Positions 466-7,245 of a DNA stretch of 11,984 nt are shown here, one piece after another. Source of the stretch: Nitrososphaerota archaeon (GTDB lineage: Archaea > Thermoproteota > Nitrososphaeria > Nitrososphaerales > Nitrosopumilaceae); NCBI GenBank assembly GCA_002730325.1, contig PBZV01000023.1, forward strand, positions 1-11,984, given 5' to 3'. Each line of letters opens with the position of its first letter. The stretch's first letter is position 1. Position numbers and translations under genes: made by a program. The notes beneath the pieces are model-generated. The model was not told where the DNA came from and searched no databases. It saw nothing but the letters and a program-made list of their open reading frames with translations.

Positions 466-768
466 TCAGTGGGATAACACTGAAAGTAGAGGCATTGCAT
501 CCCACGAATACATGGAATATTCTAATGATCCAGAACAAATGGAATCATATTTTTTGAAGAATTCATCTGCTTCTTGTTTTGTTGCTTCAAAAACTGCCAT
601 ACCAGTTAAGTTATCACTGAATGCACCTGACCACATTAGTTTACCATGTGATTGCCATTCATCTACAAGTGATTGAATTTGTGGTGCAATATTTTGAAGG
701 TCGTTTGGATTTACATTTTCCTTGAACACTGTTATGATTACCCAAGGATTAGTTTCTTCTTGACTCAT
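466..768 (-). CDS. YCII-related small protein
   Basis: The protein has 100 residues from an ATG at 768. The order of elements fits the YCII-related / dimeric alpha-beta barrel fold: a first strand (WVIITVF, residues 9-15), a long helix ending in LVDEWQSHGKL, the strand motif MWSGAFSDNLTGMAVFEA (45-62), a second helix (QEADEFFKKYD) and a last strand LEYSMYSWDAMP (82-93). YCII-like proteins are small, often dimeric proteins of mostly unknown activity, so no reaction is assigned. It has no signal peptide or membrane segment and should be cytoplasmic. Its promoter shares 27 identical bases with the upstream exported-protein gene, so the two are probably co-regulated as separate transcripts. Confidence 0.75.
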   Translation of the reverse strand: MSQEETNPWVIITVFKENVNPNDLQNIAPQIQSLVDEWQSHGKLMWSGAFSDNLTGMAVFEATKQEADEFFKKYDSICSGSLEYSMYSWDAMPLLSVLSH

Positions 769-811: not shown

Positions 812-929
812 TTATAATTATATTTTTAATTTATGAAACAAAATATGATTACAAAAAATAATTTCAATATCATAAAATAAATCAGTAGAACTTCAGACAG
901 GTATAATAAATTTTAAAAAATAAGATTAA

Positions 930-1086
930 TGTGCTACGTGCTGAGCTGACATCCCTTTACACGTCTGCACATACTGAGAGTCATTGGAACAATTGGAATC
1001 TGCGAGAATCAATCATCCTAACCGACTATGGATGTATTGTTATTGGTATAACTTGTCTACCAGTCACTTCCAATGACTCTTTTTTT
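930..1086 (+). ncRNA. Unclassified structured RNA, or structured leader of the TFB-like gene
   Basis: This stretch is clearly GC-richer than its surroundings, as expected for structured RNA in an AT-rich archaeon. Hairpin A pairs 930-934 with 967-971 and 936-940 with 960-964. A perfect 13-bp stem (977-989 with 1068-1080) closes a domain with two more hairpins: 1010-1018 with 1030-1039 (one bulge), and 1043-1048 with 1058-1063. The 3' strand of the long stem runs straight into a seven-T run (1080-1086), a likely terminator. A TATA-like TATAATAAA at 902-910 is well placed for a start near 930. I see no RNase P, SRP, tRNA, C/D or H/ACA signature. The TFB-like start codon is only 11 bases after the T-run and has no good promoter of its own, so this may be an attenuated leader. 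Pairings were found by eye. Confidence 0.6.
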
Positions 1087-1097
1087 AATTTATTGAA

Positions 1098-1688
1098 ATG
1101 ACTGGAACGTATTCAAGTTTAAAACTAATAACTGAAAGAATAGAATTTTTAAAAAACAAACTTGAGTTATCTAATGAATTAAGGGAAAAAGCAGTTGAAT
1201 TGTGCAAAAAAATCGTTGAAAAAAATATCCCAAGATGTAGATCTACAGATACCATGGCAGCTGCAATAATTTATGCAATATGTAGAGAATCAGGTGTAAA
1301 CCATACACTAAATGACATTGTAAAAATCACAGGATTGAAAAAAAACTCCATTGCAAAATATTATCGCATCATAATTAATAATCTAAACCAGAAAATGCCA
1401 ATATTTGAAATAGAATCAGGTGTAAATCGAATTACAACAAATATGAAAATATCAGATGATGTAAAGGAAATTGCTCTTGAACTTGTGAATTTTGCCAAAA
1501 AAAGAAATCATGTTGCAGGAAAAGCCCCAATGGGAGTAGCTGCTGCATCACTATATCTTGCATCATTTGATATGAATACAAAAATTTCACAACGAGAATT
1601 AGCACAAATCGCTCATATTTCAGAGGTTACAATACGAAATAGATGCAAGGAACTAGTTTCATTAATCAATCTTAGGTATGATTTGTAA
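1098..1688 (+). CDS. TFB-like transcription factor lacking the zinc ribbon
   Basis: This 196-aa protein carries the two cyclin-like repeats of TFB (archaeal TFIIB): repeat 1 about residues 12-96 and repeat 2 about 106-192. The second contains the BRE-binding helix-turn-helix ISQRELAQIAHISEVTIR (163-180). In the family these repeats bind TBP and promoter DNA upstream of the TATA box. Usual TFB has about 300 residues, with an N-terminal zinc ribbon and B-finger that recruit and activate RNA polymerase. None of that is here: no CxxC pair precedes repeat 1, and an in-frame stop (TGA at 1074) and lack of an ATG, GTG or TTG rule out a longer start. Thaumarchaea carry several TFB paralogues; this one is truncated and could compete with full TFBs or act with a separate partner. 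The function is inferred, the domain content is seen. Confidence 0.85.
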   Translation: MTGTYSSLKLITERIEFLKNKLELSNELREKAVELCKKIVEKNIPRCRSTDTMAAAIIYAICRESGVNHTLNDIVKITGLKKNSIAKYYRIIINNLNQKMPIFEIESGVNRITTNMKISDDVKEIALELVNFAKKRNHVAGKAPMGVAAASLYLASFDMNTKISQRELAQIAHISEVTIRNRCKELVSLINLRYDL

Positions 1689-1927: not shown

Positions 1928-4060
1928 TTATAATTCTACAATAATTGCAGTCTTTTCAGATTTTTTAGATTCATCTCTAATCCCATCTAATATTTTTGAA
2001 GATGACGTTAAACTAGAATAATCTACCAATTTAAGATCATTTAGTAAGAACACCTTTGGTGCAATATCTGAATGTCTTGATTCTAAAAAGTCATCCAACT
2101 CTTCAATCATAGAGATTTTCCCACCTTGGAAAACTTGCCCATTTTTTAAAGATAACTTCATCTTACCATATCTATCTAAAATCAAAATATGGTGTTGATT
2201 CTTTTTGTTAAACAATTTTTTAACTTCTACATGACCAATAAAAACAAAATAATGGTCAGTTTCAAAACCCAAATCTATCAAGTCTTCAGGGATATCAATA
2301 ATTTCACTTGCTCTTGTTTTTGCATCACCTAAAGTGAAAATATTTTTTGATGTCTCAACACTATCCAGTTCAATATTCCCTATTGCAGTGACACGTAACA
2401 ATGCTTTTTCTGAAATATATTCACTATCAATAATTATTGATTCTGGAATTGCACCTTTATCTACTAACAAGGTATGGATTTTTTTTTGAACTTTTGCAAT
2501 TTTTTCAGGAGTAGCATCATCCATTGTTTGTTCAATTTCTTCTTGAAGCATAGAAGATGCAACACCTATAGAAGAAATAACATCAGCATGTTCTGCTTTT
2601 TCATAAGAAAATCCTAATTGTTTTGCAACAAAAGGTACAAGTACAGATGCACCTCCTCCGCCTCCAATTAATTTTACAGAAGAATTTAGCTTGAATTCTT
2701 TCATGATGTTAACTATTGTTTTGTTTATTTCAAAGGATGCAGTATTAATTATTGATTGAGCAACTTCGTGATAATGAACTCCAATATGTTCTGCTAATAT
2801 TTTTAGAGCAATTTTTGCAGATTCTTGATTGGCAAACGAGTAATCTCCTTTCTCAATCATCTCCAGAGCATTTGCAGCACATGTGTTTGTAATGGCATAT
2901 GTTCCATTTTCACACTTTATTGCAACATATTCATCAATATCATTTTCTTTAGGTTTTATCTGAATTATTTTACCAGTTTTAAGATCATCTGGATCTGCAA
3001 AACATGAATATTTCAAACCTGCAATATGTGCACTTCTTGGTCCAACCTTAGAAACTCTATTTTGGCTCAAAGAAACCATACTACCACCAGCAACGCCTAA
3101 AATTCTAACATCCATTGAACGAATACATGTAGGGTGTTGATTAACTGTGACATATCTAATCTCAGGTTTCCCATTTTTTATTATACAAATATTTGTACTA
3201 GTGCCTCCAACTTCAACAAATATCCCATTAGTTACTTTGAGATAAAGTAATGCACCTGCAACACTTGCAGCAGGTCCAGATAAAACAGTCAAGATTGGTT
3301 TTGTTCTAAAAGTGTCCATACTTGAAACACCACCATCACCTTTCATTATCATTAAAGGTGCAATTACTCCAGTTTTTCTTATTGCTTCTTCAACATAGTT
3401 TGCAACTTGAAATGTTTTAGGTAAAACACTGGCATTAACTGCAGCAGTTAATGTTCTGATTTCTAAACCATAAACTCCTGAAATTTCATGTGATGCAGTA
3501 GATGGAATATTACATTTAGCAGAAGTGTTCATTACAAATAATTCATTAGAAGGATCATCAACGCCAAATGCTTCAGTAGCAACAATAACTTGTGCACCTT
3601 TAGATTTTAGTTTATCAATAATTTCCTTAACTTCGTTTTCAGTGATTAAATGAGATGTATCTAAAAATTCATGGAATGTGGTAATATTTTGATCATTGTT
3701 TCCAGACATTTCTTGAAGGTTTGTACGTTTAACCACATCTTTTTTTGAAGGGCCAACACCCATTGCAATAATACCAACTTTTGAAGTATCAGATTCCAAG
3801 AGTGCATTAATTGCCTGAGTAGTGCTATGAGAAATTAATTCAATGTCATTGATATCAATTTTTGATTCTTCTAATATGTTTGATAATGCAGATACAATTC
3901 CTTCAGAAACTCCTCTCTCAGCTTTATGAGTAGTTGGAACAGTTGATTTTGATAAAATGGAACCAGTTTTAGCATTAATTGCTACTGCTTTAGTAAAGGT
4001 ACCACCCACATCAATTCCTACACGAATTCTTTGTTTATCAGACATCTGTATTTGCTCCAT
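1928..4060 (-). CDS. HyuA-like hydantoinase/oxoprolinase-family protein
   Basis: The 710-aa protein belongs to the ASKHA-fold hydantoinase A/oxoprolinase family, whose members couple ATP hydrolysis to opening of cyclic amides or to related ATP-dependent carboxylation. Residues 12-200 match the Hydant_A N-terminal domain with phosphate-1 loop GIDVGGTFTK (15-24). Residues about 205-500 match the catalytic core, with SGPAASVAGA (261-270), the phosphate-2 region EVGGTSTN (283-290) and a glycine-rich GGGGGAS (466-472). The C-terminal 200 residues are not recognised. In phosphate-2 the usual pattern is D-x-GGTSxD, but here both acidic positions differ (E283, N290). No HyuB partner is present. The start overlaps the upstream FTR1 gene, so the two are translated from one message; the second methionine (4045) gives a tighter overlap and is equally likely. 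The substrate cannot be told. Confidence 0.85.
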   Translation of the reverse strand: MEQIQMSDKQRIRVGIDVGGTFTKAVAINAKTGSILSKSTVPTTHKAERGVSEGIVSALSNILEESKIDINDIELISHSTTQAINALLESDTSKVGIIAMGVGPSKKDVVKRTNLQEMSGNNDQNITTFHEFLDTSHLITENEVKEIIDKLKSKGAQVIVATEAFGVDDPSNELFVMNTSAKCNIPSTASHEISGVYGLEIRTLTAAVNASVLPKTFQVANYVEEAIRKTGVIAPLMIMKGDGGVSSMDTFRTKPILTVLSGPAASVAGALLYLKVTNGIFVEVGGTSTNICIIKNGKPEIRYVTVNQHPTCIRSMDVRILGVAGGSMVSLSQNRVSKVGPRSAHIAGLKYSCFADPDDLKTGKIIQIKPKENDIDEYVAIKCENGTYAITNTCAANALEMIEKGDYSFANQESAKIALKILAEHIGVHYHEVAQSIINTASFEINKTIVNIMKEFKLNSSVKLIGGGGGASVLVPFVAKQLGFSYEKAEHADVISSIGVASSMLQEEIEQTMDDATPEKIAKVQKKIHTLLVDKGAIPESIIIDSEYISEKALLRVTAIGNIELDSVETSKNIFTLGDAKTRASEIIDIPEDLIDLGFETDHYFVFIGHVEVKKLFNKKNQHHILILDRYGKMKLSLKNGQVFQGGKISMIEELDDFLESRHSDIAPKVFLLNDLKLVDYSSLTSSSKILDGIRDESKKSEKTAIIVEL

Positions 4061-6278
4061 GAGACTTTCTCATTGAAGCTAAATGTCGTTCTTTTCTTGG
4101 TCTCATTACTAACACATACGTTGATGCCACTAAATAAATTCCAAGTAAGATTATTTGTGCCACTACAGTTTCCAATGTAGGATAGATTCCAGTCATAGTT
4201 GCCAAATTAATATCCAATCTAGGAATAATTCCAATCATGCCTGTATATGGTACTATTTCCAATATCTGGAGTTCTCTAACTGCATTACCCAAAAATGTAA
4301 TGGACATGTAAGCACCTACTCCCATAGTTAATCCAAACAATGCTCGTAATGGTAATTTTCTTCCAAGCTTTCTCATTAGATAATATATCAAAAATAATAC
4401 ACCCAGCCCTGCAATAAAGCCAAGACCAACGTATACCTCCATGTATTTTGCAAATCCAGACATGGCCTGATAGAACAATACTGTTTCAAATCCTTCCCTG
4501 TACACAGTGAAAAATGCCAACATGACAAACACCATGACACTTCCAGTAGTTGTCGCCTGCCAAATTTTGGCCTTGACAAACTCCATCCATTTCTTATGTT
4601 CGATTTTATTTAATACCCAGAAACTAACATAAAACAGCATCGCAGTTGCAGATAGTGCTGCAATTGCTTCAATGAGTTCCCTATTTGCTCCAGATAATTC
4701 AATTACATACGATGCAATAATCCAAGTAAGACCTGTTGCTCCAAGTGCACCAATAACACCATAGTAGACATGTTTTTTGAAACGATTATTTCGAGATGCC
4801 TCTAAATATGTCAAAATAGCCCCAAGAATTAAAACAGATTCTAACCCCTCACGAAAAATTATAGCAAATGATGAAGTAAATGCAATGGAAGGTGCTAAAG
4901 TACCAGTACCACTAACTAAACGTTCAGATTCATCTAAACTTCGTTTAATAGAAATTGCAACTTCTTGAATTTCTTCAAAATCTGCTTGCTGTTTAATTAG
5001 ATTTCTTAATTCTGCAAATTGATATTCAACTTCTAATGTAAAGTCAGGATCAATTGCACGTAATGGAATTTCTACAAACTCATAACTATCTAGATATGCT
5101 GTTCGTGCAGAAGTATAAGCTGATTGATAATCCCCACTCTGATATTGAATTAGCATTTCTTGAAGAGTATCACGAATAAAGTCAATTTCTCCCCGGACAC
5201 CTGATTTTTGAACATCTGTAGCATCACCCATTTCTTTAAGTTCTTTATCCAAAACAGTATTTGCCAATCCTTCAGTCCCCAATACCTGGACTTTTGATTC
5301 AGCTAAACTAAGATCAGGCAATATTGATTCTTCTACAAAAATTCTTATGCGTTGTGCATCTTGATTATTTTTAATCATATCTCGTAATTCTTCTCTCATA
5401 TCTAATTCAAGGGCATAAAGTAATTCAGGATCAACTTTTTCAATATCAGGTTCCAAATATTCAAAATTCTCAAGATATGCCTCAATTGCTAATTCTTCAG
5501 CTTTCTCATAATCACCAGCATCTAAAGATACAAGCATATCTGAATACAAGTCGCGTATTGTTTCGTAGAACTTTTGTTTATCATAAACAACTGATTCATG
5601 TCCAACAAAATCACGACTTATAGCAGTGATCAAAGTACCGACAGATAGAAAGTCACTCTTGTTTGCAACTTTATCATTTAATTCAACTAGAAAAGAATTA
5701 AGTTCCAAGGTTAAGCGTTCATTATAATTTGTATTGGAAAATAATTCATGGGAACGATTAACTAGTAATAATGAAAACTCATACAAAGTTTCATTTTCAT
5801 TAGTTATGGATATTTGATATTGTTCATCTACAATTATTAGTAATAATGCAATTGTCTTGCCATAATCAGGATTAGTAATGGTATACTGATTTAGAATGCT
5901 TTCCACTTTGTTAATATCAGCAATTAATTGTGAACTATCTATAACTCCAATTCCATTATGAATATCTAATAGCATGATATGAATTTCATCAGAAATAATT
6001 GGGTTTGATTCTCGTAAGTTTTGAAGATGTAGAGGAAATATTTCAGTATTAATTAAAGACAGGTTTTTTGCATGCTCTATATTATTTTCATTAAGATTTT
6101 GTTTGATTAATGAAAGTGATGTGGTCAATAATTCTGTGACAAATAATACTGAGGTATCAGACTCAGAAAAAGTGTCAAGTTCAGCATTAATGTCAATTTT
6201 AGGCATTAACATTAAAACAATCAGACATACAAAAAATACTCTAATCGTGTTTGATTTTATTGAAGACACTTCATTCAA
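4038..6278 (-). CDS. FTR1-family iron permease with large extracytoplasmic domain
   Basis: This 746-aa protein probably imports iron across the cytoplasmic membrane. A signal anchor (about 12-30) is followed by about 430 mostly helical, acidic extracytoplasmic residues, then an FTR1 membrane domain (about 462-728, near seven segments) with both signature motifs, REGLE (476-480) and REGFE (594-598). The extracytoplasmic part contains an internal duplication: residues 247-303 and 373-430 share the pattern L-x-GDY-x-A....A-YL-x-x-(F/Y)E-(Y/F)-x-E-P....DP. Fungal Ftr1 is about 400 residues and lacks this domain; bacterial relatives often have such a part. The first codon at 6278 is TTG; GTG at 6269 also fits, and lies about 30 bases from a TTTAAATA box (6302-6295). 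The hydantoinase-family gene overlaps its end. An operator-like palindrome sits just upstream of the TATA box. Confidence 0.9.
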   Translation of the reverse strand: MNEVSSIKSNTIRVFFVCLIVLMLMPKIDINAELDTFSESDTSVLFVTELLTTSLSLIKQNLNENNIEHAKNLSLINTEIFPLHLQNLRESNPIISDEIHIMLLDIHNGIGVIDSSQLIADINKVESILNQYTITNPDYGKTIALLLIIVDEQYQISITNENETLYEFSLLLVNRSHELFSNTNYNERLTLELNSFLVELNDKVANKSDFLSVGTLITAISRDFVGHESVVYDKQKFYETIRDLYSDMLVSLDAGDYEKAEELAIEAYLENFEYLEPDIEKVDPELLYALELDMREELRDMIKNNQDAQRIRIFVEESILPDLSLAESKVQVLGTEGLANTVLDKELKEMGDATDVQKSGVRGEIDFIRDTLQEMLIQYQSGDYQSAYTSARTAYLDSYEFVEIPLRAIDPDFTLEVEYQFAELRNLIKQQADFEEIQEVAISIKRSLDESERLVSGTGTLAPSIAFTSSFAIIFREGLESVLILGAILTYLEASRNNRFKKHVYYGVIGALGATGLTWIIASYVIELSGANRELIEAIAALSATAMLFYVSFWVLNKIEHKKWMEFVKAKIWQATTTGSVMVFVMLAFFTVYREGFETVLFYQAMSGFAKYMEVYVGLGFIAGLGVLFLIYYLMRKLGRKLPLRALFGLTMGVGAYMSITFLGNAVRELQILEIVPYTGMIGIIPRLDINLATMTGIYPTLETVVAQIILLGIYLVASTYVLVMRPRKERHLASMRKSHGANTDV

Positions 6279-6544: not shown

Positions 6545-6877
6545 ATGGTTAAAAAATTAATGTTACCCCAACTAAAAAAATACGATGTTACTCAAAAAGT
6601 TATAGAGGCATTAGCTGATTCAGAATCCCGAACAATCTTATTTTCTATGATTAAAAAAGGTGGTACAGCAGCAGACCTTTCTAATAAACTCAAAATCCCC
6701 TTAAGCTCTGTTTACAAAAAATTAGCAGATTTAGAAGAACTTACTCTAATTGAAGTTGAGCAATGGCTGCTGTCTGATAAAGGAAGAAAATACAAAGTAT
6801 ATCGTAGCAGAATCAGTAAAGCTGAGATTTCTATCAAAAAGCCAGAGCCTACATTGATATTATTGCCCTTGAAATGA
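6545..6877 (+). CDS. Winged-helix transcriptional regulator (first of tandem pair)
   Basis: The 110-aa basic protein has a winged helix-turn-helix: helix 1 (TQKVIEALADSESRTILFSMI, 16-36), the HTH TAADLSNKLKIPLSSVYKKLADLEELTLI (41-69) and a wing with a basic C-terminal strand (YKVYRSRISKAEI). This resembles ArsR/TrmB-like one-domain regulators common in archaea. It has no cysteine and no evident ligand domain, so a metal sensor site is not visible. It is about half identical to the next gene, from which only five bases separate it, and it is divergent from the FTR1 operon with a shared operator-like element. I infer that it binds that element and controls itself and iron uptake; the target has not been shown. 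Confidence 0.8.
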   Translation: MVKKLMLPQLKKYDVTQKVIEALADSESRTILFSMIKKGGTAADLSNKLKIPLSSVYKKLADLEELTLIEVEQWLLSDKGRKYKVYRSRISKAEISIKKPEPTLILLPLK

Positions 6878-6882
6878 TTTGA

Positions 6883-7245
6883 ATGGCCAAACCTGAGATT
6901 ATTCAACTATCTGAATTTGACATTACTCAAAAAATCATAGATTCTCTAAGTAATGTTTGTAATAGGGCGGTCTTATTTTCTATAAAAAATGAATCAAAAG
7001 ATGCAGCCCAAATTTCAGATGAAATTAAAATTTCTATTTCTTCCACATACAAAATACTATCTACTTTGGAAGAACTTGCATTGATAGAAGTTAATCAATA
7101 TATTATTTCTTCTGAAGGGAAGAAAATTAAACAATATAGAAGTAGAATTAGTAAAGTTGAGATTGTTTTAGATAATCTAGAGCCTATTTTGAATTTATTT
7201 CCAAATATCGATAATCCAGAATCAAAACAAAATCAAATAATATAA
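6883..7245 (+). CDS. Winged-helix transcriptional regulator (second of tandem pair)
   Basis: This 120-aa protein is a paralogue of the preceding one, aligned end to end: (Y/F)D(V/I)TQK(V/I)I, then a helix ending in LFS, then SS-x-YK-x-L...LEEL-x-LIEV, and YRSRISK-x-EI. The winged helix spans about residues 14-90 and the tail is short and polar. It has a single cysteine (C26). The start lies five bases after the previous stop with no clear Shine-Dalgarno sequence, so it is probably co-transcribed and perhaps translationally coupled. Two closely similar regulators in one operon suggest a heterodimer or split sensing, which is inference. It ends 28 bases before the convergent cbtB stop. Confidence 0.8.
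   Translation: MAKPEIIQLSEFDITQKIIDSLSNVCNRAVLFSIKNESKDAAQISDEIKISISSTYKILSTLEELALIEVNQYIISSEGKKIKQYRSRISKVEIVLDNLEPILNLFPNIDNPESKQNQII

Follow-up and report, generated by a model that had tools for sequence, protein, structure and literature searches.

A structured small RNA family of the Nitrosopumilaceae with a seed complementary to ferredoxin start codons, a candidate for iron-sparing control

RyhB is an iron-sparing small RNA of bacteria, and archaeal small RNAs have been listed by ocean metatranscriptomics. IsrR is likewise described as a bacterial iron-sparing RNA, and its report presents it as a case of unrelated RNAs converging on iron sparing (PMC9410917). Among the archaea, sRNA154 and sRNA41 of Methanosarcina mazei are reported to be intergenic, trans-acting RNAs that mask the ribosome binding sites of their targets (PMC5867862), and sRNA162 of the same organism is described as an intergenic trans-acting RNA (PMC3510493). 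Tan1 is reported as an abundant non-coding RNA of marine Euryarchaeota, 229 nt long and belonging to Thalassoarchaea (PMC5069720).

The RNA gene presented here lies in a window of 11,984 nucleotides, the whole stretch of Nitrosopumilaceae DNA that was analysed. Like RyhB and IsrR, its product would be a small RNA that pairs near the starts of Fe-S mRNAs and would lower the level of Fe-S proteins, several targets sharing the same pairing region. Unlike them, it has an archaeal host and a seed inside a closed stem, its predicted pairing takes in the AUG itself, in mRNAs whose leaders appear to be short or absent, its control by iron is putative, and kinship is unsupported by any Rfam match. With the M. 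mazei RNAs it shares an intergenic, archaeal origin and a predicted action in trans, whereas their targets are nitrogen and carbon metabolism genes with leaders; the sequence comparison with them was limited to the Rfam scan. Tan1 is also an unclassified structured RNA of marine archaea but differs in length and host. The open literature searched contained no report of this RNA or of any ferredoxin-directed archaeal small RNA, although an earlier mention elsewhere is possible.

The features of the window referred to below are as follows.

466..768, minus strand: gene for a 100-aa protein with a predicted ferredoxin-like fold (dimeric alpha-beta barrel type), the usual divergent neighbour
874..914, plus strand: promoter block, from conservation, with AAAATAA (874-880), AGAACTTC (887-894) and the TATA box TATAATAAATTTT (902-914)
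930..1086, plus strand: small RNA gene with predicted ends (covariance-model match 923-1083)
930..971, plus strand: 5' hairpin P0 (helices 2 and 3)
976..996, plus strand: 5' arm of the closing stem P1 (976-989 and 992-996; helices 4 and 5), from the minimum-free-energy (MFE) structure
1003..1008, plus strand: 5' strand of the inner helix P2 (helix 6), partner 1040-1045
1030..1049, plus strand: conserved seed GGATGTATTGTTATTGGTAT, antisense to nucleotides 1-20 of the ferredoxin A mRNA, from complementarity
1060..1081, plus strand: 3' arm of P1 (1060-1064 and 1068-1081), from the MFE structure and covariation
1080..1086, plus strand: seven T, likely terminator, read directly in the sequence
1098..1688, plus strand: TFB-like gene (TFIIB match), a neighbour outside the conserved unit
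4038..6278, minus strand: FTR1-family iron permease with a long N-terminal region, from a family match

A preliminary description of the window had proposed a structured RNA in front of the TFB-like gene, and its account of the fold stood up well. The RNA has a GC content of 0.40 in AT-rich surroundings, as expected of the GC-richer island that had been pointed out; the arms of the closing stem, 977-989 (AGAGTCATTGGAA) and 1068-1080 (TTCCAATGACTCT), are the perfect 13-bp complements that had been claimed, extended in the MFE structure to 976-989/1068-1081; and that structure holds the two hairpins drawn inside the stem as well as the one before it. In the recommended comparison with shuffled controls, the MFE of 930-1088 was -46.0 kcal/mol versus -30.6 (sd 3.7) in 200 dinucleotide shuffles (z -4.2), one of which folded as well. 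The reverse strand also has a good fold (z -3.6, equalled by 0 of 200 shuffles), so the strand of the RNA is set by the upstream TATA box and by the terminal run of seven T that had been described, and not by the fold alone; the same two elements give the predicted 5' and 3' ends. Bases 1010-1013, for which two alternative folds had been suggested, are complementary to both 992-995 and 1036-1039 as far as complementarity goes, and homologues back a different inner helix, P2.

The RNA is a member of a real, structured RNA family of the Nitrosopumilaceae. In keeping with the lack of a known family signature noted earlier, neither the window nor 14 homologous loci matched any Rfam 15 family at the gathering score, and a scan of 780-1150 down to E 10 returned chance-level matches only. 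A DNA search of 61 genomes yielded two convincing homologues (in G013 and G003), both adjoining a homologue of the 100-aa gene and neither followed by TFB. The 100-aa protein itself is present in 33 of 95 genomes of the genus, and among 50 named loci carrying its gene 19 gave sense-strand matches to the RNA at E <=0.015, each of them having a copy in the same divergent position, some 130-180 nt from the 100-aa gene, and two with a second copy. These 19 span records of Nitrosopumilus, Nitrosarchaeum and Nitrosotenuis, including N. chungbukensis MY2, the Nitrosotenuis matches being weak (E 0.0003-0.015). A profile search of 68 loci placed the RNA at 17 distinct loci, covariance model R1 found it in 25 of the 95 genus genomes, and a search of 400 genomes of the order with model R2, built from 30 sequences, recovered it in 30 (5 of 66 genera, one family only), under strict filters by which weak copies may be missed. 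Since the majority of genus genomes have no model match, the RNA appears to be dispensable. Some genomes carry several copies that differ in stems and seeds, four in G033 (L100, L101) and three in G086 (L099). One locus containing N (L127) was left out, and weak antisense matches of about 18-27 bits, L099:3523 and L109 were set aside as unconvincing. Also rejected were an 18-nt match, GTCATTGGAACAATTGGA, which lies in many genomes inside what appears to be a single conserved coding sequence and is attributed to chance, and CTATTGGCA upstream of the neighbour gene in two Nitrosopelagicus loci (L175, L177), which falls within apparent coding sequence.

Comparison of homologues, also recommended at the outset, supports the structure. 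In an alignment of 30 sequences (A3), which was fitted to R1 and hence biased towards its structure, 90.4% of 1068 cells pair, against 77.0% in shuffles, and in 139 cells both members of a pair have changed, compared with 41.5 (sd 5.6) in shuffles and at most 30 when partners were slid. P0 and P1 have been rewritten among copies (P1, for example, in L100, L111 and L061): two-sided changes affect 14 of 14 pairs in P0 (89.9% and 80.6% of cells paired in its two helices) and 16 of 17 in P1 (94.5% and 91.8%). P2 is paired in 91.5% of cells, with one mismatch in the window copy, and has two-sided changes in just 1 of 6 pairs, so it is little tested. Two candidate pseudoknots, of a GACC loop with a 3' GGTC or with the P0 loop, showed covariation no greater than shuffles.

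The RNA is probably transcribed independently. In the window the TATA box lies about 27 nt ahead of the predicted 5' end, and most of the 44 copies, Nitrosotenuis included, carry an (A/G)AATA-like element, then a AAAATTTC-like one, then TATAAT some 27 nt ahead of the RNA, in this order and at near-fixed spacing. The block is absent in L130 and altered in L111, L112, L132, L064, L110 and L125. Across 16 genomes the pattern of these elements had 14 matches, 6 at RNA genes and 8 elsewhere; as the latter are about as many as in the reversed control (7), the block seems specific to the RNA, and a wider regulon sharing its promoter was rejected. A stricter pattern had 2 matches in 8 genomes. By sequence, then, promoter block and T-run delimit a predicted transcription unit apart from the ferredoxin targets, which lie elsewhere in the genome.

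The most conserved stretch of the RNA, GGAAGTATTNCTATTGGCAT, has a complement that opens with a start codon. The 10-mer ATGCCAATAG occurs at 105 places in 12 genomes, versus 4 for its reversed control. Of the 30 places looked at, 14 are gene starts, ten of them ferredoxins matching Fer4 models: four of ferredoxin A (MPIAILPDIDEQRCIGCALC), five of C (MPIAENF) and one of D (MPIDEKF). By eye, the remaining four encode a CopG/NikR-looking regulator (three) and a membrane-like protein (one); we note that the regulator (L218, L222, L231) is a possible further target outside the ferredoxins. Of 23 genomes read, 22 share the same first 20 nt of ferredoxin A, ATGCCAATAGCAATACTTCC, and a TTTAAATA box precedes its ATG by 26-33 nt in Nitrosopumilus and 34-41 nt in Nitrosotenuis, a distance from which the mRNA probably has little or no leader. 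A paralogue, ferredoxin B, starts with ATGCCAGTAGGAATTATTCC in many genomes. In the genome of the window the exact 10-mer stands at a start in ferredoxin A alone, B having a wobble form, and the seed pairs at 19 of 20 ferredoxin A positions, two of them G-U (three sites of the RNA depart from the exact complement, these two included). G086, the host of three RNA copies, yielded no ferredoxin A, and in G268 a change in the target is unmatched by its RNA. In growing N. maritimus, one ferredoxin, Nmar_0239, has been reported as the most highly expressed protein (PMC6776035).

The complementarity is specific. When ATGCCAATAGNAATACTTCC was sought in 15 genomes with up to three mismatches, the sole places with 0-1 mismatch were the start of ferredoxin A, in 15 of 15, and the RNA gene, in 8 of 15, the other RNA gene copies differing from the pattern at 2-3 sites; ferredoxin B was a recurrent three-mismatch match at a known gene start, in 14 of the 15. 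Among the places discarded, the near-match ATGCCAAT(A/T)GCAATTCTTGC of six genomes proved, at both places that were checked, to be internal to an open frame rather than at a start, and two further two-mismatch places are not gene starts. We also ranked the ferredoxins against 410 gene starts of one genome (G061, from 20 stretches), each of A, B, C and D being a single representative start rather than each genome's own. By energy of the core duplex, 34 of 44 RNAs place ferredoxin A at the top. With the whole RNA and the cost of opening each 20-nt site, it is first for 30, in the top three for 36 and in the top ten for 38, a conserved pairing by computation with the translation start of an Fe-S mRNA; the 44 RNAs are related (36 distinct seeds) and thus not independent trials, and about 0.1 first ranks would be expected by chance. 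In the same accessibility-aware scan B exceeds all 410 starts for 19 RNAs, C for 12 and D for none. The six RNAs for which ferredoxin A falls outside the top ten are L041, L061, L103, L106, L131 and L141. Nested co-folding of six RNAs did not reproduce the preference, ranking ferredoxin A 31, 7, 242, 1, 123 and 2, and was judged unsuitable because it cannot form pairing inside the closed P1 loop. The 410 genes include only one Fe-S gene, which ranks 345 among predicted targets, and two genes without an Fe-S motif that also begin with ATGCCA(A/G)TAG.

Among the 36 distinct seeds, 94-100% pair with ferredoxin A at mRNA positions 2-10 and 12-14, 86% at position 1 and 56-94% at positions 15-20. 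At position 11, where the mRNA base is C in ferredoxins A and C, G in B and A in D, 47% pair with A and 72% with A or B. Seed transitions that preserve pairing number 41, spread over 7 positions; the 37 that disrupt it fall at 13 positions, with 32 at 11, 16, 19 and 20. The target start is equally conserved in 14 of 14 genus genomes in which the models found no RNA. There is therefore no co-variation on the target side, the RNA and its target could each be conserved independently, and changes in the target are unusable as proof; the RNA seems to follow a fixed target.

Synteny bears on the suggestion, made in the preliminary description, that the RNA is either an independent small RNA or an attenuator- or riboswitch-like leader of the TFB-like gene. 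Of these alternatives the former is borne out by the promoter-like block, the two-sided pair changes and the homologues in several genera, and we consider a cis-acting leader of the downstream gene, here TFB, highly improbable. The TFB start does lie 11 nt past the T-run (ATG at 1098), and a simple scan of 1021-1098 agrees with the claim that it lacks its own promoter, as no stretch there matches TTTAAATA in 7 or more of its 8 letters, the threshold for a clear TATA box; in seven loci, mostly of small genomes (L102-L108), a gene for a 59-aa zinc-type protein lies about 65 nt downstream on the same strand and replaces the divergent 100-aa gene, and one G086 copy is followed, about 17 nt on, by the start of a DtxR gene. 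Across the family, however, what follows the RNA varies: often a convergent gene, elsewhere a gene for a winged-helix protein, a zinc protein or DtxR, or no gene nearby; and among 39 loci a complete TFB follows the RNA in the window only, with a TFB fragment in the sister genome G086 (44% over 43 aa, E 5e-6), which speaks against a leader for the family as a whole. The window's paralogue covers positions 126-309 only of the TFIIB model and is thus without the N-terminal part. The 100-aa gene, by comparison, is divergent to the RNA in 30 of the 39 loci (truncated in L110). Its product matches nothing in Pfam or NCBIfam; the model (pLDDT 85) is ferredoxin-like, with ClcF as the top solved match in a fold search, a predicted fold that would not point to RNA binding.

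An RNA that acts through its structure or by binding a protein, its core kept for folding or protein contact and the ferredoxin complementarity coincidental, seems unlikely, although the seed overlaps P2, which by itself demands CTATT, and the P0 loop too has conserved segments whose complement, ATGATAGACC, is not enriched as a second seed would be (22 places in 6 genomes versus 19 for the reversed control). Against coincidence stand the exact 20-nt register from the start codon, unique genome-wide, the first rank of ferredoxin A for 30 of 44 RNAs, the seed complement shared by several ferredoxins, and the conservation of seed positions 1-4 and 12-14, which lie outside P2. Alternatively, the RNA may pair with ferredoxin mRNAs and stabilise or activate them, or answer to copper, oxygen or ammonia, rather than spare iron. 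No computed result fixes sign or signal, and iron-related neighbours are sparse (FTR1-type proteins at 7 of 38 loci, DtxR beside one copy); by established logic, a duplex that covers the start codon itself favours translational repression, and we think stabilisation, activation or another signal distinctly improbable.

Several other features of the neighbourhood are recorded here for their own sake. Small zinc-ribbon-like and TrmB-like genes are often found near the RNA, and in the window two adjacent small winged-helix genes (6545-6877 and 6883-7245) give weak TrmB-type matches and have relatives near several RNA copies. An identical 27-nt element, TTTTTGTAATTAAAAATTAGGATGATT, stands at 258-284 and 785-811, upstream of two minus-strand genes, namely an open frame that ends at 252 and the 100-aa gene, which starts at 768. 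It may be an operator common to both, and the RNA repeats part of the element's complement, ATCATCCTAA, near 1013-1022. A short tandem repeat of TATTTATATTTCA-like units occupies 286-330, upstream of the minus-strand gene that lies at the edge of the contig.

The reading that we favour, and hold to be reasonably probable, is that of an antisense RNA acting in trans on ferredoxin mRNAs, whose start codons it would cover, probably to spare iron. The conserved core, held in the loop closed by P1 and partly masked by P2, would pair across the start codon, over the first 10-20 nt of ferredoxin messages whose leaders appear to be short or absent; the best target would be ferredoxin A, with B, C and D reached through the shared 10-nt seed complement. 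In the cell this would deny the ribosome access to the 5' AUG so that less ferredoxin is made, the likely purpose being to spare iron. Support for the iron signal comes from the dominance of ferredoxins among recurrent targets, the DtxR gene after one copy and the FTR1-type neighbours, which lie within 2.5 kb of the RNA at the loci counted above and were absent from a 400-kb sample. Evenly balanced, in our estimation, is the fuller proposal of an archaeal iron-sparing family whose 10-nt seed against AUGCCA(A/G)UAG covers up to four ferredoxin starts, the eleventh base and the flanks tuning the choice of paralogue.

We know of no earlier Thaumarchaeota regulatory RNA with assigned targets that acts by direct occlusion of the start codon; if the favoured reading is true, this RNA would be one, and would represent another independent origin of iron-sparing RNA control. 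It offers a testable case of small RNA action on mRNAs that may lack a ribosome binding site for it to mask. The sea is rich in ammonia-oxidising archaea, and if the RNA sets their ferredoxin supply, it would tie iron to nitrification.
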